A stretch of 36,278 nucleotides of DNA from positions 1 to 36,278 of IMG/VR virus record IMGVR_UViG_3300042383_000067; one strand, given 5' to 3'. Position numbers and translations under genes: made by a program. The stretch's first letter is position 1, and each line of letters begins with the position of its first letter. The stretch comes from a virus. Below the pieces are notes generated by a model that saw only the letters and a list, made by a program, of their open reading frames with translations, was not told the DNA's origin and did not search any database. Shown piece by piece: positions 2,171 through 30,167 of this stretch.

Positions 2171-2665
2171 CTATAGATTCCAATGCCTTAGCCCGCCGTT
2201 CCTGTATAAGTATCGGGCTACCGCAAGGTTGCACCGTACATTAAACAGTACCGACAGATCGCCTCTTTGTGAAGCACATTCTTTAGCCGTTACAGAGACC
2301 CAGCTGGAGTTAATCTGAAGGATGCCCCTATCTTGTGAGCCGTTACGGTTCAGGGTTTTGTTGTGAGCCAACGGGTTGCATCGGCTTTCCCTGTATGCGA
2401 TGTAAGAGAATGTTTGAACGGGTAGCCCGAACTCTGCGAACTCATCCTCCCATTGGGGGCAACGCTTCGATTTGTCCTTAGGTACACCCTCTGGAACGAC
2501 CTCGGCGGGTAGCACCAGAACCTTGTCAGACGCTCTGTAAGCCTCCGAGAGAGGCGATACTGACGGGTTCGCAGGGTTGGCAGGGGCTTCAGCAGCATGA
2601 ACCATACTGCCGAAGGTAATCGTCCCTACTAGAGCAACGGCAAATAGCCGTACAAGTGATCTCAT
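2171..2665 (-). CDS. Secreted lysozyme/transglycosylase-like protein
   Basis: The start at 2665 has GGAGG four bases upstream. It gives 164 residues beginning with a signal peptide: basic MRSLVR, a hydrophobic core and a likely cut after VHA at about residue 24. The lytic transglycosylase/lysozyme signature is present: the probable catalytic Glu93 in YRESRCNP and GILQIN at 114-119, with an ArgHisTrp end. A Pro-rich linker (28-40) separates the signal from the domain. Two or three cysteine pairs could form disulfides outside the cell. It is far from the holin and endolysin cluster, lying between the recombination genes and WhiB. It may therefore act on the wall at another stage, or be an accessory lysin exported by the host Sec machinery. 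Confidence 0.85.
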   Translation of the reverse strand: MRSLVRLFAVALVGTITFGSMVHAAEAPANPANPSVSPLSEAYRASDKVLVLPAEVVPEGVPKDKSKRCPQWEDEFAEFGLPVQTFSYIAYRESRCNPLAHNKTLNRNGSQDRGILQINSSWVSVTAKECASQRGDLSVLFNVRCNLAVARYLYRNGGLRHWNL

Positions 2666-2699
2666 CGGTCCTCCAAGACTAGCAAATTTTAGGTAATGC

Positions 2700-3161
2700 T
2701 TATGAGATAAGGGAAACCAGTTCCGCGAACTCATCCAATGTCATTAACACGATACCGTCGCTACTGCCATCAGGCATAGCAATCATCGCGAAAGGTCGTA
2801 TGTCACCCAACGACTTTGATGCTTCAGATTGTAAACGAGCCTGGTTGAAACGAGTAGCGATTGGACCCACCTGCGCACCGGCTTTGACTTCGACACGAAA
2901 GTAGCCACCCCAATGTTCTTCATGGCGAGTGCCTGCATTACCTGTCGCACTAAGACCCAACTTCTTCCTAGCACGTCTAGCTTTGCTATCACCCTTAGTT
3001 CGTGATCGTTTTCCGCGAGCAACAGGATCGTTACATCCTTTGACCCGTCGCTTACCGTCACGAGCTTCACGTCCCAAAGTTCCGAACTTGGGGCATCCAT
3101 CAACCGTACATTTGTCTCTGTTTCCCTCACAGTAATCCTTCCTGTTCTGTTCGACTGGCAT
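2700..3161 (-). CDS. Putative PD-(D/E)XK-type nuclease with N-terminal cysteine cluster
   Basis: The product has 153 residues. The first 45 hold four cysteines (11, 18, 23 and 43) that could form a zinc site. A strongly basic stretch (residues 48-68) follows, and then a core in which EVK at 91-93 with an upstream acid (Asp58 or Glu82) resembles the E-x-K active site of restriction-endonuclease-fold nucleases. The AxxxFNQAR helix after the motif is also seen in Holliday-junction resolvase-like phage proteins. The start overlaps the stop of the annealing-protein gene by one base (TAATG). This placement directly after exonuclease and annealing genes supports a recombination role. The fold assignment is an inference and needs structure prediction. 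Confidence 0.55.
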   Translation of the reverse strand: MPVEQNRKDYCEGNRDKCTVDGCPKFGTLGREARDGKRRVKGCNDPVARGKRSRTKGDSKARRARKKLGLSATGNAGTRHEEHWGGYFRVEVKAGAQVGPIATRFNQARLQSEASKSLGDIRPFAMIAMPDGSSDGIVLMTLDEFAELVSLIS

Positions 3162-6933: not shown

Positions 6934-7146
6934 CTAGTGCTTGGCGATGTGTTCCGTCAACCGATCAGAAACCTTGTCCACCTTGTCTTCGGTGCGGTCT
7001 TGCGCCCTACGCATTAGACGCAACATAGCCATAACGGTGTCATGGTCTTTGCGGTTCTCAGCTTTGAAACGTTGGATTACTACGGTTAGCAGACCAAAAG
7101 CACCAGTAACAGCAGCAGCAAGAACGAGAGCGATCCCAGAATCCAC
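6934..7146 (-). CDS. Holin-like one-helix membrane protein
   Basis: From a GTG at 7146, two codons past the endolysin stop, the frame gives a 70-residue protein. It has a short acidic N-terminus, one hydrophobic segment (IALVLAAAVTGAFGLLTVVI, residues 5-24) and a charged cytoplasmic helix with ENRKDHDTV and a His-rich end. The layout matches the actinophage holin-like family DUF2746, where Asn-x-x-Asp-His after the membrane segment is typical. An ATG at 7209 would add 21 residues and overlap the endolysin gene by 62 bases; it lacks a good ribosome site, so the shorter start is preferred. It sits directly downstream of the endolysin, as expected in a lysis cassette. Confidence 0.65.
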   Translation of the reverse strand: MDSGIALVLAAAVTGAFGLLTVVIQRFKAENRKDHDTVMAMLRLMRRAQDRTEDKVDKVSDRLTEHIAKH

Positions 7147-7147
7147 A

Positions 7148-7708
7148 TCAGACTGCTTTACTCGCAAGCCAGTCAAGTACCCGTTGAGGTTTCTTGTCGC
7201 CGGTGACATAACGCAAATGCCACGGTTCGCTTGGTACTACTTCCCAAGAAAAACCGAACGACACAGCGTTCTTCTTCAACCATTCCAAACGTGGGCCGTT
7301 AGCGTTCGCAATATCAATAGCGATACCGAGGTTATGTTTTGATGTTCCAGGCACAGCGAGCATCGCCATACCTTTCTTCAGATACCACGCTTTGCCTTGA
7401 TAGATGCGAGGCTTCTGCCCTGCAATTACTTCGGTGGTGTATCGCTGGAAGAACCCGTACTCTTGAACCGCAAGTGAGCGATATGTGTCCGCAGGGCTTG
7501 TTGGGCTAAGGTCGATTCCTTCAGCGTTTGCTGCCGCATCCATCGCCTCATACGCATCTGCTGCACAATGGTGCAACATTCCTTTGCCTTCAATCTTGCG
7601 AAGAAGTTTCGGTGCAAGTTCACCAGGTTTAGCGTTCTTTAGACATGAGCAAAGGACGACAGGGATGATCGGTAGATCATTGACCGAAACCTTTTTCTTC
7701 ATAGCCAT
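7148..7708 (-). CDS. Endolysin, M15/VanY-type D-Ala-D-Ala peptidase domain
   Basis: The 186-residue protein carries the zinc peptidase M15 signature: SKHNLGIAID at residues 123-132 (His125 and Asp132 bind zinc) and EPWHLRY at 161-167 (catalytic Glu161, zinc ligand His164). TYRS with Arg77 matches the conserved YRS of VanY-like enzymes. The N-terminal 40 residues, with an ELAPKLLRKIEG segment, are common at the start of actinophage lysins and may fold onto the catalytic domain. There is no signal peptide, so export depends on a holin. Its start overlaps the stop of the holin gene by one base. It would cleave peptide stems of the host peptidoglycan. Confidence 0.9.
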   Translation of the reverse strand: MAMKKKVSVNDLPIIPVVLCSCLKNAKPGELAPKLLRKIEGKGMLHHCAADAYEAMDAAANAEGIDLSPTSPADTYRSLAVQEYGFFQRYTTEVIAGQKPRIYQGKAWYLKKGMAMLAVPGTSKHNLGIAIDIANANGPRLEWLKKNAVSFGFSWEVVPSEPWHLRYVTGDKKPQRVLDWLASKAV

Positions 7709-7956
7709 TATTCGGCTACTTCAGGCTTCGCCTTCACCGCGCCAGTAAACGCGAGTTCGATTTCTTCTTTGGTGAGTGAACCGTCAACGCTGAAACGCAA
7801 CAACTTCTCGATCACCTGGGCGCAAGCCATGATGCCAGCAAGTGCTGCCGACTTCCACAGGTCTACACCAATCAAAGCACCACCAGCAACAGCGGCCAAT
7901 GCGCTTGATCCGAATAGTGCGAAGATGCGGAAGATGATGTTTTGAAGCTTTGCCAT
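7708..7956 (-). CDS. Holin, two-helix membrane protein
   Basis: The chosen ATG at 7956 gives 82 residues. There are two hydrophobic stretches, ALFGSSALAAVAGGALIGV (about 12-30) and WKSAALAGIMACAQVI (about 32-47). The Trp-Lys-Ser-Ala junction and the following EKLLR are typical of a small holin family found in many phages. The C-terminus (VDGSLTKEEIELAF) is polar and helical. A longer frame from 8085 would add 43 hydrophilic residues that overlap another small gene and look non-coding. It is next to the endolysin gene, with which it shares a stop-start overlap. It should make the membrane lesion that releases or activates the endolysin. Confidence 0.75.
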   Translation of the reverse strand: MAKLQNIIFRIFALFGSSALAAVAGGALIGVDLWKSAALAGIMACAQVIEKLLRFSVDGSLTKEEIELAFTGAVKAKPEVAE

Positions 7957-7958
7957 GT

Positions 7959-8120
7959 CTAGTCTTTCTTGGAGAGGGTTAGTGATGAGTGTACCAAAAC
8001 GACTATTCCGGTTATGAGGGTTGCCTGTCGGAGTGTTGGGCCTGAGAGGGTGATGAGAACCATGCCTGTGCCAGCCCATGTCCATGCGTTGTCTGCTAGG
8101 TAATCCAAGAGTTTTCTCAT
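7959..8120 (-). CDS. Small membrane protein (53 residues), possible second holin or antiholin
   Basis: An ATG at 8120, overlapping the stop of the upstream gene as TAATG, opens 53 codons ending two bases before the holin start. The product has two hydrophobic segments, TWAGTGMVLITL (about 14-25) and ATLITGIVVLVHSSLTL (about 33-49), with a short polar N-terminus and a LysLysAsp end. The tight coupling to holin and endolysin suggests a lysis role such as antiholin or co-holin. The gene is well supported by junctions on both sides; the role is an inference. Confidence 0.65.
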   Translation of the reverse strand: MRKLLDYLADNAWTWAGTGMVLITLSGPTLRQATLITGIVVLVHSSLTLSKKD

Positions 8121-9517
8121 TAGCGTCTAATTCTAGTACCTGCTGCTGCGAGGGTTATCCCCGCTGTGACTGCGATCAGGGTGCGTCGTTCTCCGACTGG
8201 GATGGTTGAGCCGGTGGGGGTGTAGTCGTCTAAGCCTTCACCGAAGATGTCGATGGTGTCTTCAAATTCTTCACGGATTTCGGTGGGTGCGGATTCGATT
8301 GCTGCGATTAGTTCTTCGGTTTGTGTGTCGGAGAGTGCGCCCACGTCTAGGACTTCAAAGATTTGTTGTGCTTGCTCGGTGCTGATGACAGCTAGGACTT
8401 CGGGGCTGGACGCGAGAGCGGTTGCCTGTTCTTCGGTTGGTTCTTCAGCGAGCAGGGTTTCTAAGACTTGTTCGACTTGTTCGGGGCTGAGTTCGGCTAG
8501 GGCTTCTACAAGGGCTTCTGTGGTTTCTGCCTCTGCTATTAGCGAATCCACTTCTTCGTCGCTTAGAGGGGCTTCTAGGGGTGTCTCAGGGGTTTCTGGC
8601 AGGGTTGTGTCTACGACTGGTTCTTCTGTAGTGTCGGGATATGTTTCATCTGTCGTGGTTGTTTCTTCGGGAAGCGTCGTTTCTGGCATGGCTTCCTCTA
8701 CTGGTGGCTCTGTGGTGTCTGTCTCGTCTGGTTCAGGCTCTACAGGAACGGAAGTATCAACGGGTTCTGGCTCAACTATTTGAGGCTGTGTAACAGGTGT
8801 TGGAACTGCTGGTGGTTGTGTCGTGGTCGTCGTTGATTCTGTTGTTGTTGTTTGGGGTACGGAAGAAGTAGTTGTCGTTGTTGACGTGGTGCTAGTTGAG
8901 TTCTCCACAGAAGTTGTGGTTTGAGGAACAGTCGTTGTCGTTGTTGTCGATGAGGTGGTAGTTGTTTCTTGAACTGTCGTAGTAGTCGGGTTGGTGACAG
9001 GGACAGTCGTTGACGGGACAGTAGTAGTAGAGGTCGTCGTCGTTGTTGTGGATGAGGTTATAGATGCCCATAACGACAGGTTACTGATTGTGAGCTGACC
9101 TGGCTGGCAGCAGGAATCTATTGAGTACTGCCGGAACGTGAACACATCACCCTCATTCACGGGTACAGAGAGTTCACCTGTCGCGTTGTTCTGTTGTGTA
9201 AGCAAGGTGTACGCACCGTTGATGCCGTACTGTGGCGGGTCATACACCCAACCATCATTGGTCTGATATTGCCAAGTGAAATCTATTGTGTCTACATCTG
9301 CGGGGATTGTGGTTTCAATCTTGACCCAGTTCGCCCCCATGCAACCACCACCATCAGGGCCACGCAAGATGATCGTGTCGTCAATTACTTCGACTGAACC
9401 TGTTGCACATGACTGGCTGTATGTCCATTCACCGAGCGTGTCAGCTTTAGCAGGTTTCGCAAAAAGTGCGAACAGTACTGCGGGGATGATTATTAGATAG
9501 CGGGTGTTGCGACCCAT
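8120..9517 (-). CDS. Secreted Thr-rich surface protein with C-terminal membrane anchor
   Basis: The 465-residue protein has a clear signal peptide (residues 1-25, likely cut after AKA). A Cys-containing beta-rich domain follows (26-153, with a CC pair near 137), then a Thr/Ser repeat linker coded by runs of ACx codons (about 154-250). After that come an acidic Pro/Thr/Glu segment (250-320), a helical Glu/Ala/Leu-rich domain (320-430) and a C-terminal hydrophobic helix (TLIAVTAGITLAAAGT, 446-461) ending RIRR. The overall design is that of a bacterial wall-spanning surface protein, not a virion protein. It precedes the small holin-like genes and overlaps the upstream gene by 25 bases. It may modify the infected cell surface, block superinfection or help outer-layer lysis. 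Its function is not known. Confidence 0.8.
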   Translation of the reverse strand: MGRNTRYLIIIPAVLFALFAKPAKADTLGEWTYSQSCATGSVEVIDDTIILRGPDGGGCMGANWVKIETTIPADVDTIDFTWQYQTNDGWVYDPPQYGINGAYTLLTQQNNATGELSVPVNEGDVFTFRQYSIDSCCQPGQLTISNLSLWASITSSTTTTTTSTTTVPSTTVPVTNPTTTTVQETTTTSSTTTTTTVPQTTTSVENSTSTTSTTTTTSSVPQTTTTESTTTTTQPPAVPTPVTQPQIVEPEPVDTSVPVEPEPDETDTTEPPVEEAMPETTLPEETTTTDETYPDTTEEPVVDTTLPETPETPLEAPLSDEEVDSLIAEAETTEALVEALAELSPEQVEQVLETLLAEEPTEEQATALASSPEVLAVISTEQAQQIFEVLDVGALSDTQTEELIAAIESAPTEIREEFEDTIDIFGEGLDDYTPTGSTIPVGERRTLIAVTAGITLAAAGTRIRR

Positions 9518-9822
9518 GCCAGAGTTTCTTCATCCCAAGTGAATGACCCCTCTGGTTTTGGTGTTGGTGCTTGCCAATCGTTGTTGCTGTTGAGCGTCCA
9601 TGATGGGAATGGTTGTGGTGCTACGAACTGGTCTGCGTCAGCGTCATAGGTGAAACCGATACCTGCGTATTGTTTGCGAATACGTCCGTTATAACTGGTT
9701 TGCACCCATGTGCCACCAAGCAGGTTGTTGCACCACTCTGAACCGTTGGCTTCATGTTCGTCAGCGACAACGATTACTCGTAGGACTGTGTTGGTTGAAT
9801 CTATTTCTGCAAAATGTGCCAT
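9493..9822 (-). CDS. Small conserved phage tail-associated protein, unknown function
   Basis: The 109-residue product has the pattern of a protein widespread in environmental phages: MAHFAEID at the start, a VLRVIVV strand, GGTWVQTSYNGRIRK near 36-50, a YAGIGFTYD strand and PFPSWTLN near 72-79. Relatives usually sit beside tail-fibre genes and may be fibre-associated or assist fibre assembly. That role comes from gene position only. An AGGA site lies about seven bases upstream of the ATG, immediately after the stop of the glycine-rich gene. Confidence 0.8.
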   Translation of the reverse strand: MAHFAEIDSTNTVLRVIVVADEHEANGSEWCNNLLGGTWVQTSYNGRIRKQYAGIGFTYDADADQFVAPQPFPSWTLNSNNDWQAPTPKPEGSFTWDEETLAWVATPAI

Positions 9823-9826
9823 GTTT

Positions 9827-10645
9827 TCATCCTATTGGGTATCTGATTATTACTATTCCTGAACCACCTGCTGCGCTTCCACCTGCGTTTCCACCACCAG
9901 TAGCACCATTTCCTGTATTAGCAGTGCCAGCAACAGCAGTATTGCCACCAGCACCACCAGCAGCATAAGTGACACTTGAACCACTGATTGAGACAGCAAC
10001 ACCTGCTCCACCTGTACCAGCGGTTGAACCAGAAGCGTTCCCACCAGCACCACCTGCACCACCGCCACCACCGTTGTTTGATGCAGCACCACTACCACCT
10101 GCAAAACCTTGATTGGCTGTTCCTGCACCACCAGCAAAGTTGTTTGCAGAACCGCCACCACCCGAACCACCAGCAACACCAGGAGCGTTGGCTCCAGTAG
10201 CACTAGAACCACCGCGTCCACCACCTGTAGATGTGATAGTAGAAAATATTGAGTTGGAACCATTAGCACCAGCAGCCCCACCCGCGCCAACAGTCACCGT
10301 GTAAGAAGTGCCACCTGTAAGAGACAAGGCAGTTTCTAACGAACCACCACCACCTGTTGCTGTGACAGTTGAGCGGAGTCCACCTGCACCACCACCAGCG
10401 TTCCAATTCGTATCGTTACCACTTCCAGCACCACCAGCAACAACAAGATATCCAACGTTGCTAATAGAAGCAAGTGGAGAGACACTTAAAGTGCCTGTAG
10501 TTGTAAAGGTGTGAACTTTGTATACGACACCTGAATCAGTAATAATTGATTCTGTTCCACCAGCCAACAAATTTTGGTTACGGTTCAGCCCAGACAAGTT
10601 GGAAATAGCAACATACTGACTGACCCGTGTTCTACCACCACGCAT
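9827..10645 (-). CDS. Glycine-rich tail appendage / adhesin-like protein (copy 2)
   Basis: The 272-residue protein has a short N-terminal attachment-like part and a YLVVAGGAGSG strand near 67-77. A long Gly/Ala/Asn-rich body follows (80-265), and it ends in GSGIVIIRYP. Gly-Gly-X runs of this kind form polyglycine-II helix sandwiches in known phage receptor adhesins such as those of S16-type T4 phages, so host recognition is plausible. The arrangement matches the adjacent upstream protein (10645..11550), which indicates tandem duplication and divergence. The ATG overlaps the upstream stop by one base. Confidence 0.82.
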   Translation of the reverse strand: MRGGRTRVSQYVAISNLSGLNRNQNLLAGGTESIITDSGVVYKVHTFTTTGTLSVSPLASISNVGYLVVAGGAGSGNDTNWNAGGGAGGLRSTVTATGGGGSLETALSLTGGTSYTVTVGAGGAAGANGSNSIFSTITSTGGGRGGSSATGANAPGVAGGSGGGGSANNFAGGAGTANQGFAGGSGAASNNGGGGGAGGAGGNASGSTAGTGGAGVAVSISGSSVTYAAGGAGGNTAVAGTANTGNGATGGGNAGGSAAGGSGIVIIRYPIG

Positions 10646-11460
10646 TATGCCACCGTCACAGTCGTTGAACCAGTCGAAGTAAACGAATGAATCGTGTACC
10701 CACCCGAAGTAGTTACAGTTCCACCGCTAACAGAGATACCCGCCGAGGATGCGTCAGAAGTTAGGTAACGGAAAATCACAACACCCGAACCGCCCGCAGC
10801 AGCCGTGTCACCACCACCACCACCGCCACCAGTGTTTGCTGTACCAGCAGTAGCACTTGACAAACCACCACCAGTACCACCACCACCAGTACCACCCGCG
10901 CCACCAGTTCCAACAGTATCCCATCTAGCACCACCACCGCCACCACCACGGGCAACAGACGTACCTGTGATAGATGACGACAACCCGTTACCACCTGCAC
11001 CACCACTAGTGGTCACAGCAGCACTACCAGCAGTGTCAGCACCGCCACCACCGCCACCACTAGGTTGCCCTCCGTCCACTCGACCTGCACCACCATTTCT
11101 GCCTTGACCAGCAGTTCCCGCACCACCAGCACCAGATGAACCACTGCCTACACCACCACCACCACCGCCTGAACCGCCTGCGCTGCCTGGGTCTGCGGCA
11201 TAATGTCCACCAGCACCACCGCCAGTAGAAGTCAAACTAACAAAAGATGAATCAGAACCGCTGGTGTTTGTCCCACCGCCAGCACCAACAACAACCGTGT
11301 ACGTTCCAGCACCAATACTTAAAGCAGAACGGCTTTCTAACGTCCCACCACCACCAGTTGATTCACCAGCAACCGAACTGCGATAGCCACCTGCACCGCC
11401 ACCACCAGCTCCACCATACGTTGAAAGAACAGTGTTAGTACCGCCACCGCCACCGCCAGC
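9850..11460. repeat. Low-complexity CCA/CCACC-rich tract inside the glycine-rich genes
   Basis: On the plus strand this stretch is dominated by irregular CCACCACC and CCAGCACC units; on the coding strand these are GGT, GGTGG and GCT codons. The unit length varies and the reading frame is kept throughout both genes, so the tract is explained by glycine-rich protein coding. The similarity between the two genes could support slippage or recombination between them. Confidence 0.7.
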
Positions 11461-11550
11461 GATAATCAGATACTCAATATCTAAAGACGGGTTAATCCAG
11501 TTTTTTACAGACTGACCAGCCCGACTACGGGTATCCCAACGAAGCGTCAT
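10645..11550 (-). CDS. Glycine-rich tail appendage / adhesin-like protein (copy 1)
   Basis: The 301-residue protein opens with MTLRWDTRSRAGQSVKNW, a likely virion-docking segment. Next is EYLIIAGGGGGG near 26-37, then a body dominated by Gly-Gly-Gly-X runs. A GSGVVIFRY strand near 256-264 closes the body, followed by a Ser/Thr-rich beta C-terminus. The YLIIAGGGG and GVVIFRY borders match those of its downstream paralogue, so both carry the same glycine-rich domain. A weak AGGG site precedes the ATG. It is probably a distal tail fibre or adhesin that contacts the host surface. Confidence 0.82.
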   Translation of the reverse strand: MTLRWDTRSRAGQSVKNWINPSLDIEYLIIAGGGGGGTNTVLSTYGGAGGGGAGGYRSSVAGESTGGGGTLESRSALSIGAGTYTVVVGAGGGTNTSGSDSSFVSLTSTGGGAGGHYAADPGSAGGSGGGGGGVGSGSSGAGGAGTAGQGRNGGAGRVDGGQPSGGGGGGADTAGSAAVTTSGGAGGNGLSSSITGTSVARGGGGGGARWDTVGTGGAGGTGGGGTGGGLSSATAGTANTGGGGGGGDTAAAGGSGVVIFRYLTSDASSAGISVSGGTVTTSGGYTIHSFTSTGSTTVTVA

Positions 11551-11559
11551 GCTTCGACC

Positions 11560-11922
11560 CTACGAAATCTGGTTGACGAAGCCAGTAAGAAGAATTACGT
11601 CAGCAGTACCAGCAAAAGCTTTCACCGTCTTACTGTTCTGCAAAATCAAACCAGGAACAACCAAAACCAAACCAGCCTCAGCAGCAATCGTCAACTCAAT
11701 GTTGCCATCAGCAGCCGTAGCAGTACCCCACTCCAACGTCAACTTCACAGCAGAAGAAGAAATGTTATTCGCATACAACCAAATCTCATCGCACAATCCA
11801 GCAGTAGTTACAGTCGTATATGCGGCATGAACCGTTACAGCAGAACCAGTACCAGTGCCAGTAACTTTTACAGCCAAACCATCAGTAGAACCCGACAGTT
11901 TTCTCTTTGTGAATGTTGCCAT
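11560..11922 (-). CDS. Small virion-associated protein, unknown function
   Basis: This 120-residue protein starts MATFTKRKLSGSTDG and continues as a beta-rich chain with EIWLYANN near 46-53, LTLEWGTA near 61-68 and a hydrophobic LVLVVPGLILQNSKTVKAFAG stretch near 85-105. The pattern is typical of a short structural protein found in many environmental phage tail regions. Its position between two tail-appendage genes suggests a base or fibre-linking part. No catalytic motif is visible. Confidence 0.78.
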   Translation of the reverse strand: MATFTKRKLSGSTDGLAVKVTGTGTGSAVTVHAAYTTVTTAGLCDEIWLYANNISSSAVKLTLEWGTATAADGNIELTIAAEAGLVLVVPGLILQNSKTVKAFAGTADVILLTGFVNQIS

Positions 11923-22598: not shown

Positions 22599-23373
22599 CG
22601 AGCATCCTTTCTAAAGTTTGTGCGTATCCTGCAAACTGAACAGCATCAGCCTCATCCTGATTACCAGCCTCAATCTTTTTCTGTGCAAAAGCAGCAGCAG
22701 TAGGAGCCTGTTCAGCAACACCAGCCTGCGACTTCTGTCCAGCCAACTCAACACCCTGATAAGTCTTAACCAACTTATCCAATTCTTCGGTGTCCAATGT
22801 TCGGCCCAACACGTTCTGGGAAACCTTGTCAAAAACATTTTGCAAATCCGTCGCAGCAGTCATGCGATACTTCTTCAAACCACCGCCACCACCCGAATAA
22901 GGGAACTTCAGAGAACGCTCCAACGCTTGTTCGACGCTAATGAAACTTTGGTTGGCATCAATCAACGCCCGCTTGTATGCGTCAAGGGTTGACTGGCGAA
23001 CAATGCCTGGTTGATATGACTGACCAGAAAAGTATCCTCCAGCAGCAAGTCGTTTTTGCCAAGCAATAACGTCCTCAGCATCCCAAGTGGCAATTGCTTG
23101 TTCATCACCTTCAAAGTATTGAGGCTGGATTGGTTGACCACCAACAGTTTTGGTAGGTCCCTCATATCCAACTAGCCGACCATCTTGGAAAACACCGCTA
23201 CCTTCAAGACCAAGAACATTTTTGCCTCCGCCACCAAGACCCAAAACTTCTTTAACATAAGCAAGAGCTGCCTGAACTTCAGGAGATACCGGAACAGTCG
23301 TGGTCGGTGCTGGTGGACCAATCGGAGGCGTAGTTGTAGGGGTTGTCCCATCCTGTTTAAGTTTTGGAGCCAT
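22591..23373 (-). CDS. Pro/Gly-rich portal-proximal structural protein
   Basis: The 260-residue protein begins with a Pro/Thr-rich stretch (1-30), then a Gly-rich linker near 45-60, a middle with WDAEDVIAWQKRLAAGGYFSG near 97-117 and a helical C-terminus. LKKYRMTAATDLQNVFDKV near 166-184 leads into an NVLGRTLDTEELDKLVKTYQ block. This last block is a small conserved helical module in many phage internal proteins. A peptidoglycan-binding function was considered because of the WQKRL(A)AGGYFSG pattern, which resembles PG_binding_1, but the core is too short to be certain. The start overlaps the giant gene's stop (TAATG). Confidence 0.72.
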   Translation of the reverse strand: MAPKLKQDGTTPTTTPPIGPPAPTTTVPVSPEVQAALAYVKEVLGLGGGGKNVLGLEGSGVFQDGRLVGYEGPTKTVGGQPIQPQYFEGDEQAIATWDAEDVIAWQKRLAAGGYFSGQSYQPGIVRQSTLDAYKRALIDANQSFISVEQALERSLKFPYSGGGGGLKKYRMTAATDLQNVFDKVSQNVLGRTLDTEELDKLVKTYQGVELAGQKSQAGVAEQAPTAAAFAQKKIEAGNQDEADAVQFAGYAQTLERMLGG

Positions 23374-26300
23374 TACGGTAACTGTCCTGTCTGAACCAAT
23401 AGTTTCTCTTGTTCGGTCAAAGTCTTAAATTCTCTAGACAAAACACTATCCCACACGCCCTGGAACGCAGGATTCTTTTCAGCAATTTGATCCCCAACAA
23501 TCTTCAAAGCCTCACGCTCGACGATACCACCACGGTTATTACGCCAAGAGTTAACGCTAGTTAAACCAGAACTACGGGTAATCACATTGACAATCGCATT
23601 ACGTTGTGCCAAATACTCTTTCAATGGAGCCATAACCGGCAAGTTGGCTAACTTCGGATCAATAGATGCTTTGATAATTGAGTTCACCGAGTTAACGATT
23701 TCGTCGTTATATTCCTGAAACGCGAGTGACCTGTTCCAACTAGGCAACGATGATTTGATTTGAGATTCCATCATGCTTAAAGCGTAGGATTTCAGAGGGG
23801 TTTCGCCCAAAGCCTGTGTTAATTCACGATCATATTTGTTGTAACGGAAGTTACCCCACAACTGTTCGATCTGGGCAGCGATTTCTTCTTTGGGCAAAGC
23901 AGAAAGTTCACCTGCACGTTTCTGAATGTTGTAAATCTTTTGGTCAAACTCGTTTGTATTCGGTCCAAAATAGCCCGCAACATCTGGATAACGCCTAAAC
24001 AAATCTTCGTTTTCGTTTTTGAATTTGTAGAACGCTTTACTGGACTCTGAACCAGGGACATTACTTTCGCTGATAGAAGCCAAATACGGTAGGACAAGAT
24101 CACCGTATTGGTTGACCACTCCATCAATTTGATCTTGAAATGTGCCACCCTTATCACGAATGTCGTTTTCTGTTTTTCGGATACTGTCTAACAGAACACC
24201 GAGCGGAACCAGTTTGCTGTCTTGTTCTGCGTAGAACTGGCTGATTGGTGCGCCAGGGGAGAAGAACTGTGTCAAACCGCGCAACCACCATAGAGTATTG
24301 CCCTTGTCTTGTGATGCTTGCATCGCTTCACGAACACCAGCTTCGTCTTGTGTGTATTTACCTGAAGCAAGCTCAGCCATAAAAGTACGGCTCTGCAAAG
24401 TTTTATACACGGGGTCATTGTTCGGGTTGCCTAAGAACTGTGATACACGCTCAAATGGTGTTCCAGCGGCCAAACCTTGTGCAAAACGTTGGATAGCCAA
24501 AGGAGTGAAGTAGTCCTGCAATTCGTTAGATGGCTCACCGTAAGGGATGAATACCTTATTCAGTTTGTCCCAAACCTCACCTTGCCTATTAGGTATAGCG
24601 GTGTAGGTCAAAGCAACATACGGACCAACCGACGGGATGACGCTTGTAGCCATCGACAAAGAACCAACACTCACTTTGTAGTCAAATGGGATACCCGTCA
24701 ATGCTCGCGCTGCGCCACCGACAAGTGGATAGTTGAAACTCAAAGACCCTGTTTGCGGGTCACGGTAAACAAAACCTTCGTTCTTGCCATCTTGGTCAAT
24801 ATCCCCTGGTCCAATGATGTTTGTTTCACCAGGTCCACCAATTTGCAAGTTACCTAAAGCCTCAGCAGCTTTATCAATCTTGTGGGTGGCAAGAGGGTTG
24901 ATTGCAGTTTTCGCTAACTGGACGCTCACTTCACGGAAAGCATCAAAGAATGGGAACAAGAGGCGATGGTTGTAGCCGAACAATGTTTTCTTGCGTGAGT
25001 CAAACAGCAAGTTGATTGTGTCCTCAACTGCTCGATATCCAGCAAGGCTGTCAAGTTTTTCTAATGTGCCAGTGCCTTTAGCCCGTGGAATGTTGTCAAG
25101 GATATTTTCTACGACGTGCTGCGGAAGGTTCAGATCAGGTAGGGAAGCCTTCAGTTTCAATGCTTCTTCTTTACTAAGCAAAGGGATCATGTCGGCAATT
25201 AGGTTCCATTTACGTGCATTAAACATTGGGACTCTAGCGAACTTGTCTGATGCACGACCGTAAGCGTTCTGCATAAACCAACTAAAAATTCCAGCAGATT
25301 TTTCTTCATCAAACTGTGAAACACGGGGGAACACCATTGTTGCTTCTGGGGCTTTTGACCATTCAGCAAAAATAGGGACAGTCAGATCATCAGGATCACC
25401 GGCTTTGAGCAGGTTCATGAACTCTGCTGAAGGAATGTTCCCGTATGCGGTTCTGCGACCAAGAGAAAATGTTTCACCGCCGACGATCACACCATTGTTA
25501 GCAATAGCACCAAGCAACTTAGGATGTCCACCAGTCACCTGTTGCAAGTCATCCACTACATACTCAACATATTTCCTTGCACCTTCAAGAGTGTCCCACT
25601 CATAATCTGGACGCAACTTGCCCAAGCCTTTGAAATACGATTCGTAAGCTTTTCTTAACGAACCATCAAACATTTCATTAGCCAGTTTTTCTAAAGCACC
25701 ACGGGAGCCTGTTTGCAAAGCGCGGGCAACAGCAGAACCCAACACATCAGTACCACGATCAATAGATGCCTGAGCAATACCCCTCAACCACAAGGTAGGG
25801 TTTTCGCTTCTAAAAACGGTTTGTTGTGAACTTGCACGAACATGACCAGCAACAAGGTTTCCTAGAGCGGTATCCCCAGCTTTGGTTGGCGATGGTCCGA
25901 TCATCACATCACGGGCTGAAGCAACTTCGGATTCTAGAATTGAATCAATTTCGTCAAGACGTGCCTGCTCAGCAGCAACATCAATCTTGGCAAGTCTGCG
26001 ACGCAACTTGTCAGCCAACTTGGTGTTACCCAAACTTTCTGCTCTAGCAATTCGGGCTGGCAAAACATTCAAAGCCTCGTCAAGTTTCAAGGCAATATCA
26101 TCAGCCTCCGATATTCGTGGCATAACTCGACCATAAATATCTTTATTCATACGACCAGAGAAAATTTCTGCCACATAACCGAACTCGTTGCCGAACTGTC
26201 CGGATAGAGAGTTACGCATCATTTCTTCTGGGACAACACGAAGCACATAACGACCAGACAAAAGAACCGCTTTTTTCCAAACAGTCTGCAACCAAAAAGC

Positions 26301-29300
26301 TTTAGCCATCGCCTTGTCAAGAACATCCAATGTTTGACCCATACCAGGGGTTACACGGGCAAGCAGCGAATACTCGGCCCAATTGGAGGTCAGGTCAAGA
26401 AGTTGGTCAAGTTCATCTGTGTCAAACGGCAACAGGCTGATGTCATTTGTTCTTTGTTGAACCAAATACATCGGCCCCATACCACTACCCTCTAGGTAGT
26501 CAAGACTCACGCCCCTGCCTACATCGTCCCAAACATAACGCACGATTTCTTCTTCTTTAGAAACCAAAAATGTTGAAGCCTTACGAACCGCATCTTCGAT
26601 CTCTGCCACAAGTTCAGTTCGACGCTTCATCGTGACACGTTCAAAAGGAGTCATCTCCTCAAACGTTTTCTTCAAAGGTGCTTTCAGCTTGTCAATTACT
26701 GGTTGGATTTTATCCTTGATGACCACGTTTTTGAATTCTTTAGCGAAGTCAAACAGATCACCACGGATTTTTGCTGCATCATCCTGAGACACAATCCTGA
26801 TGTATTCGTTCATCAAAGCCGATCTAGCCTCAATTGGGGTTTTAAGAACAATCATCGTGTCATGCAGGTGGTTTGCTCCAGCAGCCAAATCGTTAATCGG
26901 CAAAACATTTGATCGCGGAAGTGTCGCAGCCATACGAGAATTTTTAGAAATCAATTGTTTGGTTCGATACCCAACTTCACCAATTACGTTGCCACTCCAA
27001 CCAGGCAAACCACCAGGAGCTATGCTCTCCAATGGGTCAAGACTTGCCCTCGCAGCATCAAACACAGCCTCAACCGCTTCAGGAGTAGTTGCCTCAGAAA
27101 GTTTTTGTGCCAAACGAGGCGACTTACCTTTAAGGAACTTCATCCAAATTTCGTAAGCATTTCCTTCAGACGCAATGGCTTTGAAAACATTTTGACCAGT
27201 ACCAGATATTTTCCAAAGTGAGTAAGGTTCGGCAGCAACGCTCTTGGAAGCAGCATCAATAAGACCGTGTGCATCCAAATATCCTTGTGCCTGGGCGATG
27301 TCTCTTGCTGTGACCTGCAACTGTTCACCTTCAGCGACAAGTCGTCGAGCCTCCACCGTTGGCAACATCTCACCAGTTCTAGAAGCTCTTACTTTTAGTT
27401 TTGACGGAGACAAAACAACTCTTGCGGTATGGGTTCCGTACTCTGATCCAATTCTCACACCGCCGTCATAACTAATTGCATCAACACCTTTAAGTTTGAA
27501 CCAATCATTCACAACATCGGTGGTTCTAGTTGGGTATGGAATGACATCTGGCTGAAACGAACTGAACGTTACATCCCTAAATCCTGTTCCGTCAGCACTT
27601 AAAACTATGTTTTTGAAAGGTCCAACATCACCAATGGGGACAGTCAACTCTAAATTAACCCCCATCTGATACAACGCTTTTTCAACGAACCCGTCAAATG
27701 CCCCATCGGTTATTCGTGAGTAAGCCAATACACTTTGAGTTTCTCTTGGCAAAGAAGAAAAGTTTGGTATTGATTTGATCTTTGCAAGATCAACACCAAC
27801 TAAATTTTCTGTTTGAAATGCTTTTGACATTTCTTTCAGTTCATCAATGAAAGAACGATATTCCTGCGTAAGCTGCCTAAACTCTGCAACAGTCGCATCA
27901 AACAATTTTTTATCAAGTTTTGAGCCTGCTAGTTCTGTCGTAAACTGAGCAGTTTTTCTTTGAACAAAGTTTTCAGCAACAGCAGCAAATCTTTTTTCTA
28001 GCAGTTTTGCTTCACTGATTTTTTGGGCAAGAATTGCTTGCGTTTCTGGTGTTGTATACATACCATTGTATGCAAACTCCCAGTCAACAATTTGTCTTTG
28101 CAAGGCTTGAACCGGTGTAGGTCTATAATCGGAAGCAGTTTGAGGATTATCAATAGCAGAAGCAATAGCTTTACCCCTGCTTGAATAAGCAACAGCCTTA
28201 TATTCCGAAGCATTTAATTCTGGGTTCCAAACAAATTCACTATCGACAGACAAATCATCAGACCACCCAACAAACGGCGTTTGATCTAACGTATCATCCA
28301 AAAGATACTGCAAATTTCTGTTAGTAAAATAATTTTTTGAACGCTCAATCAAACGCAAGTTATTTTTCAACCAATCCGCAGGAGCAGCAAGCCTTCTTCT
28401 AACATCAACAAGTTTTGCGGTATCGTTTATTCCAATAAAATAATCTTCAGGATTAACATTTTGCAGTCGAATACCGCCGACAGGTGAGTCAAAACCTATT
28501 TCAACAAGCCTTCTTTCAACTTCAAGCGCATTTTCTAAAGTAAAACCCAATTCGTTAATAGCAGAACGAAGATTCCAAGGAATGTTTGGATCAAGAGTCC
28601 AAGTTTCTTCACCGTTAATTGTCAAAAAACCTTCTTTTGGTGTCTCAAACTCATAGACGTATGCTTGACCTGATTGTTCACCGACAACCGGAACCGTTAC
28701 TTCGGTTTCGCCAAGATTGAGTCGAGTGTCTCCAGCGCGAGTCTCCAAATTGTAAGAAGTTGCAACAGGGGAAAGATCGGTATCGTAAAGACCTGGACCG
28801 ATCAGATTCCCTGTGTTTATCGGACCGTCTGGACCAATGTCAAGAAATTGATCAATTGGTTGACCACCACGCGCCACTACCGTCCTGTCCCCAGACCAAG
28901 TGACCCCAGGCTGGCGCGTAACAAGACTCACAGCAGTTTCGGACAACTGTGAAGCCTCATCAACCATTGAAACAACTTCATCGGCTTTAGCAATAGTTTC
29001 CGGTGTCAAAGCAATCCCAGCCTTAACCAGTTTTCTTGCTGCCGCAGCAGATTCGGCAGATGCGGTAACTGCCTCTGGTAAAGCACGTAAGGCTTTAGGA
29101 GCCTGAACCACGTTCAATGGGTCCATAAACACTTGAAAACCCATGTCGGTGGTTCCACTTAGCAAACTATGGATGTCGTCACCAGCTTCATACACATCGG
29201 CTATCACGCCCAATGAAGCAACTATTCTGCCTACTGTTGCTGTTTGACCATATATTTTCGGGCGCAAACGTTCTTCAAGTTTGTTACGCGCTTCTTCGGC

Positions 29301-30167
29301 TGGCCCACCTGGGAGATAACCTTCGCCAGTAGATTTGTTTTGAAAAAGAGTTGTATTGGAGATAATTCCTTTCATTTGCTCCCAGATACTCGCATCAGAA
29401 GCAGTAACAATCGAACTATCGTCGTTGAGGATCAATGATGGAGAAAACATAATCAAGTTTTCGATCATCTGTATAGGAGCCATAGCCACAGTCAGGGTTT
29501 CCCTCAACGGGTCACGGACCATCGTGTTCCATGCAGTTGATCCACCAGAAGCAGCAATTGACAAAGTTTTTCCTAAAACATTTTCTGCCCATTCGGTGTA
29601 TGGGATTGCGTCAACAGTTTTAGAACTTGCTTTTGCTATTGGTGAGCCAGCATAATTTTTAAAGTAAACAAACGGAGTTTTGACAACAGTTTGGATGTCG
29701 TTAGCAAATCGTCCGCCAATATATTCTTGAACACCGAAACCACCAGTACTTACATCGGTGATAGTACCTGGGTTGAAACCACCTTGGAACTGTTGCTTTG
29801 GAACAAACTTCCATTCGCCGTTCTTCTTGATATATGCACCGTCACCCATAGGTAAACGGTTTTTATTAGCGTTAATTGTTGCAAGTCTGTCTGAAGTTGT
29901 TTGTGGTGCGCGTTCCCCAACTCGTTCAGTTGGTGCAGCCGTGGAAGGTTTGAAGCCCGCACCTTCTAATGCAGCAGAAATAGCTGCAGATTGCTGAACA
30001 TTTTTTGCTGACGGTGACGCAGAAACGGCCGCCATCTCCTGAAGTTGTGTAACTTGCGGAGGCTGGTATGTTGCCGGTATTGCGGGACCCAACTTCGGTG
30101 GGTTTGATGCAGGAGCAACAGGTAAAGTTTGTTGTTCTGTCGGTGTCTTATCCTGTTTCTTTACCAA
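23373..30167 (-). CDS. Giant 2264-residue internal virion protein with ADP-ribosyltransferase-like domain
   Basis: The gene begins at TTG (AAAGGTGG about eight bases upstream) and is the longest in the window. The N-terminus is disordered and Pro/Ala-rich (1-105). Residues about 421-592 resemble ADP-ribosyltransferase folds of phage polyvalent proteins: VARGG (Arg433), GPGLYDTD at 457-464 with Tyr472, the YVYEF strand near 503-507, and GFDSPVGG at 558-565. A second region at 894-928 (GVDAISYDGG, then VVLSPSKLKVR) resembles the end of the same fold. Much of the rest is helical. A DIDQDGKNEG acidic loop lies near 1789-1798 and a hydrophobic Gly-rich stretch near 1816-1855. By location between portal and scaffold it is probably ejected with DNA. 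Enzyme activity is inferred and unproven. Confidence 0.85.
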   Translation of the reverse strand: MVKKQDKTPTEQQTLPVAPASNPPKLGPAIPATYQPPQVTQLQEMAAVSASPSAKNVQQSAAISAALEGAGFKPSTAAPTERVGERAPQTTSDRLATINANKNRLPMGDGAYIKKNGEWKFVPKQQFQGGFNPGTITDVSTGGFGVQEYIGGRFANDIQTVVKTPFVYFKNYAGSPIAKASSKTVDAIPYTEWAENVLGKTLSIAASGGSTAWNTMVRDPLRETLTVAMAPIQMIENLIMFSPSLILNDDSSIVTASDASIWEQMKGIISNTTLFQNKSTGEGYLPGGPAEEARNKLEERLRPKIYGQTATVGRIVASLGVIADVYEAGDDIHSLLSGTTDMGFQVFMDPLNVVQAPKALRALPEAVTASAESAAAARKLVKAGIALTPETIAKADEVVSMVDEASQLSETAVSLVTRQPGVTWSGDRTVVARGGQPIDQFLDIGPDGPINTGNLIGPGLYDTDLSPVATSYNLETRAGDTRLNLGETEVTVPVVGEQSGQAYVYEFETPKEGFLTINGEETWTLDPNIPWNLRSAINELGFTLENALEVERRLVEIGFDSPVGGIRLQNVNPEDYFIGINDTAKLVDVRRRLAAPADWLKNNLRLIERSKNYFTNRNLQYLLDDTLDQTPFVGWSDDLSVDSEFVWNPELNASEYKAVAYSSRGKAIASAIDNPQTASDYRPTPVQALQRQIVDWEFAYNGMYTTPETQAILAQKISEAKLLEKRFAAVAENFVQRKTAQFTTELAGSKLDKKLFDATVAEFRQLTQEYRSFIDELKEMSKAFQTENLVGVDLAKIKSIPNFSSLPRETQSVLAYSRITDGAFDGFVEKALYQMGVNLELTVPIGDVGPFKNIVLSADGTGFRDVTFSSFQPDVIPYPTRTTDVVNDWFKLKGVDAISYDGGVRIGSEYGTHTARVVLSPSKLKVRASRTGEMLPTVEARRLVAEGEQLQVTARDIAQAQGYLDAHGLIDAASKSVAAEPYSLWKISGTGQNVFKAIASEGNAYEIWMKFLKGKSPRLAQKLSEATTPEAVEAVFDAARASLDPLESIAPGGLPGWSGNVIGEVGYRTKQLISKNSRMAATLPRSNVLPINDLAAGANHLHDTMIVLKTPIEARSALMNEYIRIVSQDDAAKIRGDLFDFAKEFKNVVIKDKIQPVIDKLKAPLKKTFEEMTPFERVTMKRRTELVAEIEDAVRKASTFLVSKEEEIVRYVWDDVGRGVSLDYLEGSGMGPMYLVQQRTNDISLLPFDTDELDQLLDLTSNWAEYSLLARVTPGMGQTLDVLDKAMAKAFWLQTVWKKAVLLSGRYVLRVVPEEMMRNSLSGQFGNEFGYVAEIFSGRMNKDIYGRVMPRISEADDIALKLDEALNVLPARIARAESLGNTKLADKLRRRLAKIDVAAEQARLDEIDSILESEVASARDVMIGPSPTKAGDTALGNLVAGHVRASSQQTVFRSENPTLWLRGIAQASIDRGTDVLGSAVARALQTGSRGALEKLANEMFDGSLRKAYESYFKGLGKLRPDYEWDTLEGARKYVEYVVDDLQQVTGGHPKLLGAIANNGVIVGGETFSLGRRTAYGNIPSAEFMNLLKAGDPDDLTVPIFAEWSKAPEATMVFPRVSQFDEEKSAGIFSWFMQNAYGRASDKFARVPMFNARKWNLIADMIPLLSKEEALKLKASLPDLNLPQHVVENILDNIPRAKGTGTLEKLDSLAGYRAVEDTINLLFDSRKKTLFGYNHRLLFPFFDAFREVSVQLAKTAINPLATHKIDKAAEALGNLQIGGPGETNIIGPGDIDQDGKNEGFVYRDPQTGSLSFNYPLVGGAARALTGIPFDYKVSVGSLSMATSVIPSVGPYVALTYTAIPNRQGEVWDKLNKVFIPYGEPSNELQDYFTPLAIQRFAQGLAAGTPFERVSQFLGNPNNDPVYKTLQSRTFMAELASGKYTQDEAGVREAMQASQDKGNTLWWLRGLTQFFSPGAPISQFYAEQDSKLVPLGVLLDSIRKTENDIRDKGGTFQDQIDGVVNQYGDLVLPYLASISESNVPGSESSKAFYKFKNENEDLFRRYPDVAGYFGPNTNEFDQKIYNIQKRAGELSALPKEEIAAQIEQLWGNFRYNKYDRELTQALGETPLKSYALSMMESQIKSSLPSWNRSLAFQEYNDEIVNSVNSIIKASIDPKLANLPVMAPLKEYLAQRNAIVNVITRSSGLTSVNSWRNNRGGIVEREALKIVGDQIAEKNPAFQGVWDSVLSREFKTLTEQEKLLVQTGQLP

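Follow-up and report, generated by a model that had tools for sequence, protein, structure and literature searches.

The locus studied here raises the question of why a phage should encode, immediately before its lysis genes, a protein built like a surface protein of its host, and what such a protein would do there. The window, by which we mean the whole virus record of 36,278 bases, carries genes for a phage capsid protein (PF13252), a terminase-like protein and WhiB (PF02467, E = 1.2e-17). The gene whiB has been named a key indicator of actinophages (PMC10202952). Because it is present, the window points to an actinobacterial host, and the host is presumed from this one clue to be an actinobacterium. 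Hundreds of contigs of uncultured phages, several of them presumed lake actinophages, carry the same gene paired with that of a 53-aa protein, and neither product has a known function. The architecture of the large protein and its pairing with the 53-aa protein are well supported; the function of the two is not well supported, and a surface lectin aiding lysis is the most likely one.

A preliminary description had given the gene as 8120–9517. The open reading frame is real but lies on the minus strand, from an ATG at 9517 to a stop codon at 8122–8120, with a product of 465 aa; a plus-strand reading of the same interval was rejected for its many stops. The parts that had been proposed for the product, namely a signal peptide, a Cys-rich beta domain, a Thr/Ser linker, an acidic region, a helical domain and a C-terminal helix followed by RIRR, are all found by prediction (Table 1).

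Table 1. Features of the large gene and of the genes that follow it, in window coordinates.
Feature	Residues or length	Position	Strand	Basis
Predicted Sec-type signal peptide, MGRNTRYLIIIPAVLFALFAKPAKA	1–25	9443..9517	−	Hydropathy, charge, AxA rule
Ectodomain head, predicted beta sandwich, four Cys, CBM-like	26–153	9059..9442	−	AlphaFold, Foldseek, dN/dS
Thr/Ser-rich stalk	154–237	8807..9058	−	Composition; length differs by indels among relatives
Acidic Pro/Glu/Thr-rich region	238–315	8573..8806	−	Composition
Predicted helical base	316–440	8198..8572	−	AlphaFold model, family alignments
Predicted C-terminal membrane helix and basic tail, VGERRTLIAVTAGITLAAAGTRIRR	441–465	8123..8197	−	Hydropathy, C-domain model, conservation
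Two-helix membrane partner, MRKLLDYLADNAWTWAGTGMVLITLSGPTLRQATLITGIVVLVHSSLTLSKKD	53 aa	7959..8120	−	ORF reading; phrog_29041 match
Second small membrane protein, two-helix, holin-like, phrog_26427	82 aa	7708..7956	−	PHROGs match, sequence
VanY/M15 peptidase endolysin	186 aa	7148..7708	−	Pfam VanY, E = 5.8e-16
Small protein with hydrophobic segment, overlapping the endolysin gene, phrog_32850	91 aa	6934..7209	−	PHROGs

The signal peptide has a hydrophobic core (KD 2.2 over 15 residues) and a net charge of +4, and the AxA rule places its cleavage between MGRNTRYLIIIPAVLFALFAKPAKA and the following Asp. Judged by rules of hydropathy, charge and the AxA site rather than by SignalP, this pattern is present in 57 of the 60 family members whose 5′ ends are intact; among the other ORFs of 200 aa or more in these loci it is present in six of 355. 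The stalk consists of 56% Thr and 15.5% Ser, while the acidic region is rich in Pro and carries a net charge of −23. Together they comprise 162 residues, which in an extended form are long enough to span a typical Gram-positive wall. The C-terminal segment VGERRTLIAVTAGITLAAAGTRIRR ranks second in hydrophobicity within the protein; its helix, which corresponds to helix 126–144 of the C-domain model, is conserved across the aligned relatives. Once the signal peptide is removed, hydropathy and models predict a single membrane helix and an extracytoplasmic domain, and because of the signal peptide and the C-terminal RIRR the topology is predicted to be N-out/C-in. Anchoring by sortase finds no LPXTG motif near helix 446–462, the sequence LPEET at 282–286 lying far from it. 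Export, topology and sugar binding are thus predictions, and in these terms the design that had been proposed, an exported, wall-spanning and membrane-anchored surface protein, holds. Structure predictions had been suggested as checks for residues 26–153 and 320–430; that of the head gave a beta sandwich (pLDDT 88), and that of the C-terminal domain gave helices (pLDDT 82.5). In the model of the base, residues 316–421 form eight predicted helices, and from there to about residue 440 the chain is irregular.

The large reading frame is not a chance one, because a first IMG/VR search returned 55 relatives, 25 of which align over their full length, and because the median dN/dS is 0.09 for the head and 0.13 for the C-terminal domain; that of the 53-aa partner ORF is 0.11. 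No family in Pfam, NCBIfam or PHROGs contains the protein. Weak family matches (DNA_pol_A, TagH and others) were rejected as low-complexity noise, and matches to MgtE_N in three relatives (L126, L137 and L151) probably reflect a helical repeat and not function. What the family shares is an anchor, made up of a helical region and the motif FExxI(D/N)(I/V)..G.D.Y.P.GS.I.VG.R(R/K)..A, followed by the membrane helix; within the base, the family alignments give the signature FExxIDIF..G.D.Y.P.GS.I. A fold search of the base against the PDB gave no significant match, and PDB sequence matches of the anchor (protein A, tautomerase) were rejected as marginal and scattered.

Searches with the C-terminal anchor retrieved 452 and at least 457 related contigs from IMG/VR, a collection of redundant and incomplete contigs, each sample being drawn in order of resemblance to the query. 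The members lie on contigs of a few kb up to 210 kb and their proteins range from 465 to about 1500 aa. Strict anchor patterns had zero matches in 85,000 bacterial and archaeal genomes, and looser patterns matched only two MAG contigs there (L202 and L203), labelled Gammaproteobacteria and Flavobacteriales. These look like phage contigs misbinned in MAGs, because both carry the partner and one of them a VanY gene too. A host origin of the anchor was rejected, given this near-absence and the phage-like nature of the two matches, and the family appears to be phage-specific. No cultured relative was found in 50,697 phage records, the only named one being the metagenome-assembled DSL-LC01, and a literature search found no description of such a protein. 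The family is thus a large one of uncultured phages, with no described function for the large protein.

The 53-aa partner had been missed in the preliminary description, as had the size of the family and the apparently swappable lectin-type heads. Its ATG overlaps the TAA stop codon of the large gene (TAATG), so that the final A of the stop codon, at 8120, is its first base. It consists of two hydrophobic helices and contains an invariant TLSG motif. The window partner matches phrog_29041 (E = 1.5e-35), as do 30 of 32 aligned partners; this group covers the 53-aa protein, but PHROGs neither assigns it a function nor connects it with the large protein. No match to a holin family was obtained in Pfam or PHROGs. 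By its small size, two helices and location in the lysis region the partner resembles a class II holin, with permeabilization of the membrane at a programmed time as a putative activity.

Among 77 non-redundant members, the partner is adjacent or fused in all 76 that can be assessed, as a separate ORF in 40 and as an in-frame C-terminal fusion in 36 (L154 and L163 being examples of the latter). The reverse search with the partner matched 551 contigs. Of the best 80 loci among these, which include near-duplicates, 77 encode the large protein immediately upstream and three are truncated by the contig edge, giving 77 of 77 assessable loci. The pairing thus appears to be obligate in both directions. 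In 22 of the 36 fusions a Shine–Dalgarno sequence precedes the internal ATG ahead of the hairpin, as against four of 210 other internal Met codons (Fisher p = 3e-18, a value that is too small because the compared members are related). This sequence is kept while the residues that it encodes differ (KEGKE, REGKE, QEGT or RRFSP). A weaker GGGGG stands upstream of the internal ATG in the fusions of L126, L144, L145 and L149. L126 and L145 are among the large phages with such an in-frame fusion and internal ATG.

The preliminary description had further placed the gene immediately before holin-like genes, and genes for small membrane proteins and a VanY endolysin do follow it directly, in the order large gene, 53-aa partner, 82-aa holin-like protein, endolysin and 91-aa protein with a hydrophobic segment. 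Homologues of the 82-aa protein follow the pair in L154, L163 and several of L204–L283; the label "nuclease" of its PHROGs group looks wrong for a membrane protein of this size. The endolysin has intact metal-site motifs (SKHNLGIAID and EPWH), its start overlaps the preceding stop (TAATG) and its sequence contains no visible signal peptide. PHROGs labels it as a tape-measure family. VanY comes in two main forms, about 88–98% or 41–52% identical to that of the window (74–79% in the PA14-headed group), and the forms are swapped between phages that are otherwise close. Elsewhere in the window, 2171–2734 (minus strand) encodes an SLT/lysozyme-like protein (PF18896, PF01464) with a signal-peptide-like segment, which is probably a second, exported wall hydrolase.

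Of the 67 non-redundant members for which 2.5 kb or more of downstream sequence is available, 51 have VanY 50–1000 bp further downstream in the same orientation, and the link is seen in contigs of up to 174 kb. Some members that lack it have nearby, as read from the sequence, a GH25-like lysozyme and a holin-like gene (L145) or holin-like genes (L126 and L159). Universal linkage was rejected on the basis of the second, partner-selected sample, in which VanY is present in 21 of 71 loci, and VanY or the second holin-like gene in 40 of 71, within about 3 kb; in DSL-LC01 about 9 kb separate VanY from the large gene. Linkage to lysis genes therefore appears to be frequent, not universal. In many members the gene lies where tail-fibre and lysis genes meet, and in some it adjoins tail-fibre genes instead. 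The neighbours alone do not fix the role, because so many members border both.

The head of the window protein is predicted to be an all-beta sandwich of 128 residues with four cysteines, a count that is retained in L048, where loss of the first Cys is offset by the gain of another. In Foldseek searches against the PDB its best E value is 7.1e-5, and the matches are mostly CBM35, CBM32, CBM4, CBM61 and other jelly rolls. The likeness is moderate (TM mostly about 0.35–0.50). The model is of a CBM-like or lectin fold with putative sugar binding. Other members carry an L-type lectin (L126, E = 1.6e-40), PA14 domains (lowest E 3.9e-7; over the Pfam cut-off in L154 and L163), a SUEL-lectin-like head slightly under the Pfam cut-off (L137) or a right-handed beta helix. 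The head type of the window recurs at 70–80% identity on anchors of just 37–43% identity (L204, L206, L208 and L220). CBM-like, PA14, L-type lectin and SUEL-lectin-like heads thus appear to be exchanged between members on a retained anchor.

Within the window's own group, the heads are 66–96% identical to that of the window, mostly 82–89%. The fibre-like and Gly-rich genes at 9493–11922 (minus strand) are hypervariable among close relatives, at 23–96% identity, unlike the conserved head. The head therefore does not seem to track the fibre genes of the phage. The strong purifying selection and the lack of co-variation with the fibre genes suggest that the target of the head is conserved.

We tentatively propose that the large protein is an accessory lysis factor, a late, exported and membrane-anchored surface lectin paired with the 53-aa partner, and consider this to have almost an even chance of being correct. 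The protein would be made late and exported by the Sec pathway to the surface of the infected cell, where the C-terminal helix, with RIRR inside, would fix it in the cytoplasmic membrane, with the helical base standing on that membrane. The Thr-rich stalk would cross the wall, such that the beta-sandwich head can bind an envelope glycan at or beyond the wall surface. Acting as a pair with the two-helix protein, it would grip surface or membrane-anchored glycans from the membrane side and in this way help the envelope to come apart when the holin and the VanY endolysin are at work. Export, topology, glycan binding, late timing and a part in lysis are inferred here.

The closest functional parallel is LysZ, from phages CL31 and Cog of Corynebacterium glutamicum. 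According to PMC13056207, which cites McKitterick, Lyerly and Bernhardt, this lysis factor has one helix, works outside the cytoplasm and has lipoarabinomannan as its target. As described there, LysZ shares with our protein an actinophage origin, a single membrane helix and a portion outside the cytoplasm whose supposed targets are membrane-anchored glycans, and by this analogy the large protein may likewise act on membrane-anchored glycopolymers. It is nevertheless not a LysZ by size or topology: LysZ is given as 177 aa and N-in/C-out, whereas the family members have 465 to about 1500 aa and are predicted to be N-out/C-in. The comparison, made with the published description, also sets apart the signal peptide, C-terminal anchor, exchangeable lectin-type heads and obligate small partner of the large protein. 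Spanins, from phages of Gram-negative hosts, similarly span the envelope and are encoded with holin and endolysin. The preliminary description had called the protein spanin-like, which agrees with its place in a lysis cassette (in the window and in the 51 of 67 representatives, more weakly in the wider sample) but not with the missing lipobox. A spanin in the strict sense can be discarded, as the cleavage region FAKPAKA/D contains no Cys, there is neither a second membrane anchor nor an outer-membrane anchor, and the presumed host is an actinobacterium. The interpretation given in that description is thus partly supported.

The main rival of the lysis reading is receptor masking or superinfection exclusion, which had also been suggested and is possible, although we regard it as unlikely. 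Here the exported lectin would cover the glycan used by tailed phages, shielding the cell from a second infection and keeping progeny from sticking to debris, again an unlikely but not negligible outcome. Predicted surface display, glycan-binding-type heads swapped between anchors and the adjoining fibre genes in the window and many relatives fit this. Llp of phage T5 is a superinfection-exclusion lipoprotein on the host surface. Ltp of Streptococcus thermophilus phages is described in PMC3952083 as a surface-exposed lipoprotein with the same purpose, so that phage-encoded proteins displayed for this end do exist. Unlike these lipoproteins, the large protein has no lipobox and possesses a C-terminal helix and a wall-length stalk. 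The constancy of the head beside fibre genes of such variable identity, and its dN/dS, which indicates no arms race, argue against masking. So do the linkage chiefly to lysis-type genes and the two helices and holin-like size of the partner.

Other readings place the partner at the centre. In a rather improbable one, the lectin-headed wall-spanning protein and its holin-sized two-helix partner, which is fused to it in some phages and would there also be made alone from an internal start, would form a so-far undescribed two-protein membrane machine, in which contact on the outside gates or powers lysis. An ectodomain-gated holin, with the partner as holin or antiholin and the large protein as a sensor or regulator that times lysis by outside contacts, is doubtful to a similar or somewhat greater degree. 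It would account for the obligate pairing in both directions, and the internal start with its Shine–Dalgarno sequence resembles that of dual-start holin genes. In size and number of helices the partner also matches N-in/C-in holin-like actinophage proteins as described in PMC13056207. Among these, LysF1a and LysF1b of the mycobacteriophages Girr and NormanBulbieJr are two small membrane proteins of the lysis cassette; LysF1a (77–88 aa) resembles the partner by description in having two helices and an N-in/C-in topology, and neither is accompanied by a large exported protein or a fusion in the account given there. On the other hand, the cassette contains other holin-like genes (7708–7956 and 6934–7209) and the TLSG motif is unusually conserved for a holin.

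A modular build that combines lectin, PA14, FN3-like and beta-helix parts would also suit an adhesin whose head sticks infected cells to other cells or particles and so shifts the site of progeny release, but this leaves the tight coupling to a two-helix protein and to endolysin genes unexplained and we think it improbable. Least probable of all is a virion protein such as a fibre or receptor-binding component, for although the upstream neighbours are fibre-like, Gly-rich structural genes, tailed-phage fibres carry no export signal, and the signal peptide kept in 57 of 60 members, together with the C-terminal membrane helix, does not fit cytoplasmic assembly of tailed phages.

If the role in lysis is correct, the family would show how the envelope is finally broken by phages whose actinobacterial hosts are bounded by a wall, and would extend the LysZ principle to a large, modular and lectin-based form. 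If receptor masking is correct, it would be a widespread exclusion system. Under either reading, clear testable predictions follow from the obligate pairing, the fusions and the exchange of heads.

The single named relative, WJZ48438.1 from the Actinomycetia phage DSL-LC01 (OQ999401, a metagenome assembly), shares the anchor with 49% identity over 77 aa, and its two-helix partner is fused as in other fused family members. It differs in its length of 944 aa and in having several other ectodomains, and is annotated as hypothetical only. The window also contains a very large ORF of 2264 aa at 23373–30167 (minus strand), located between portal-side and capsid-side genes.
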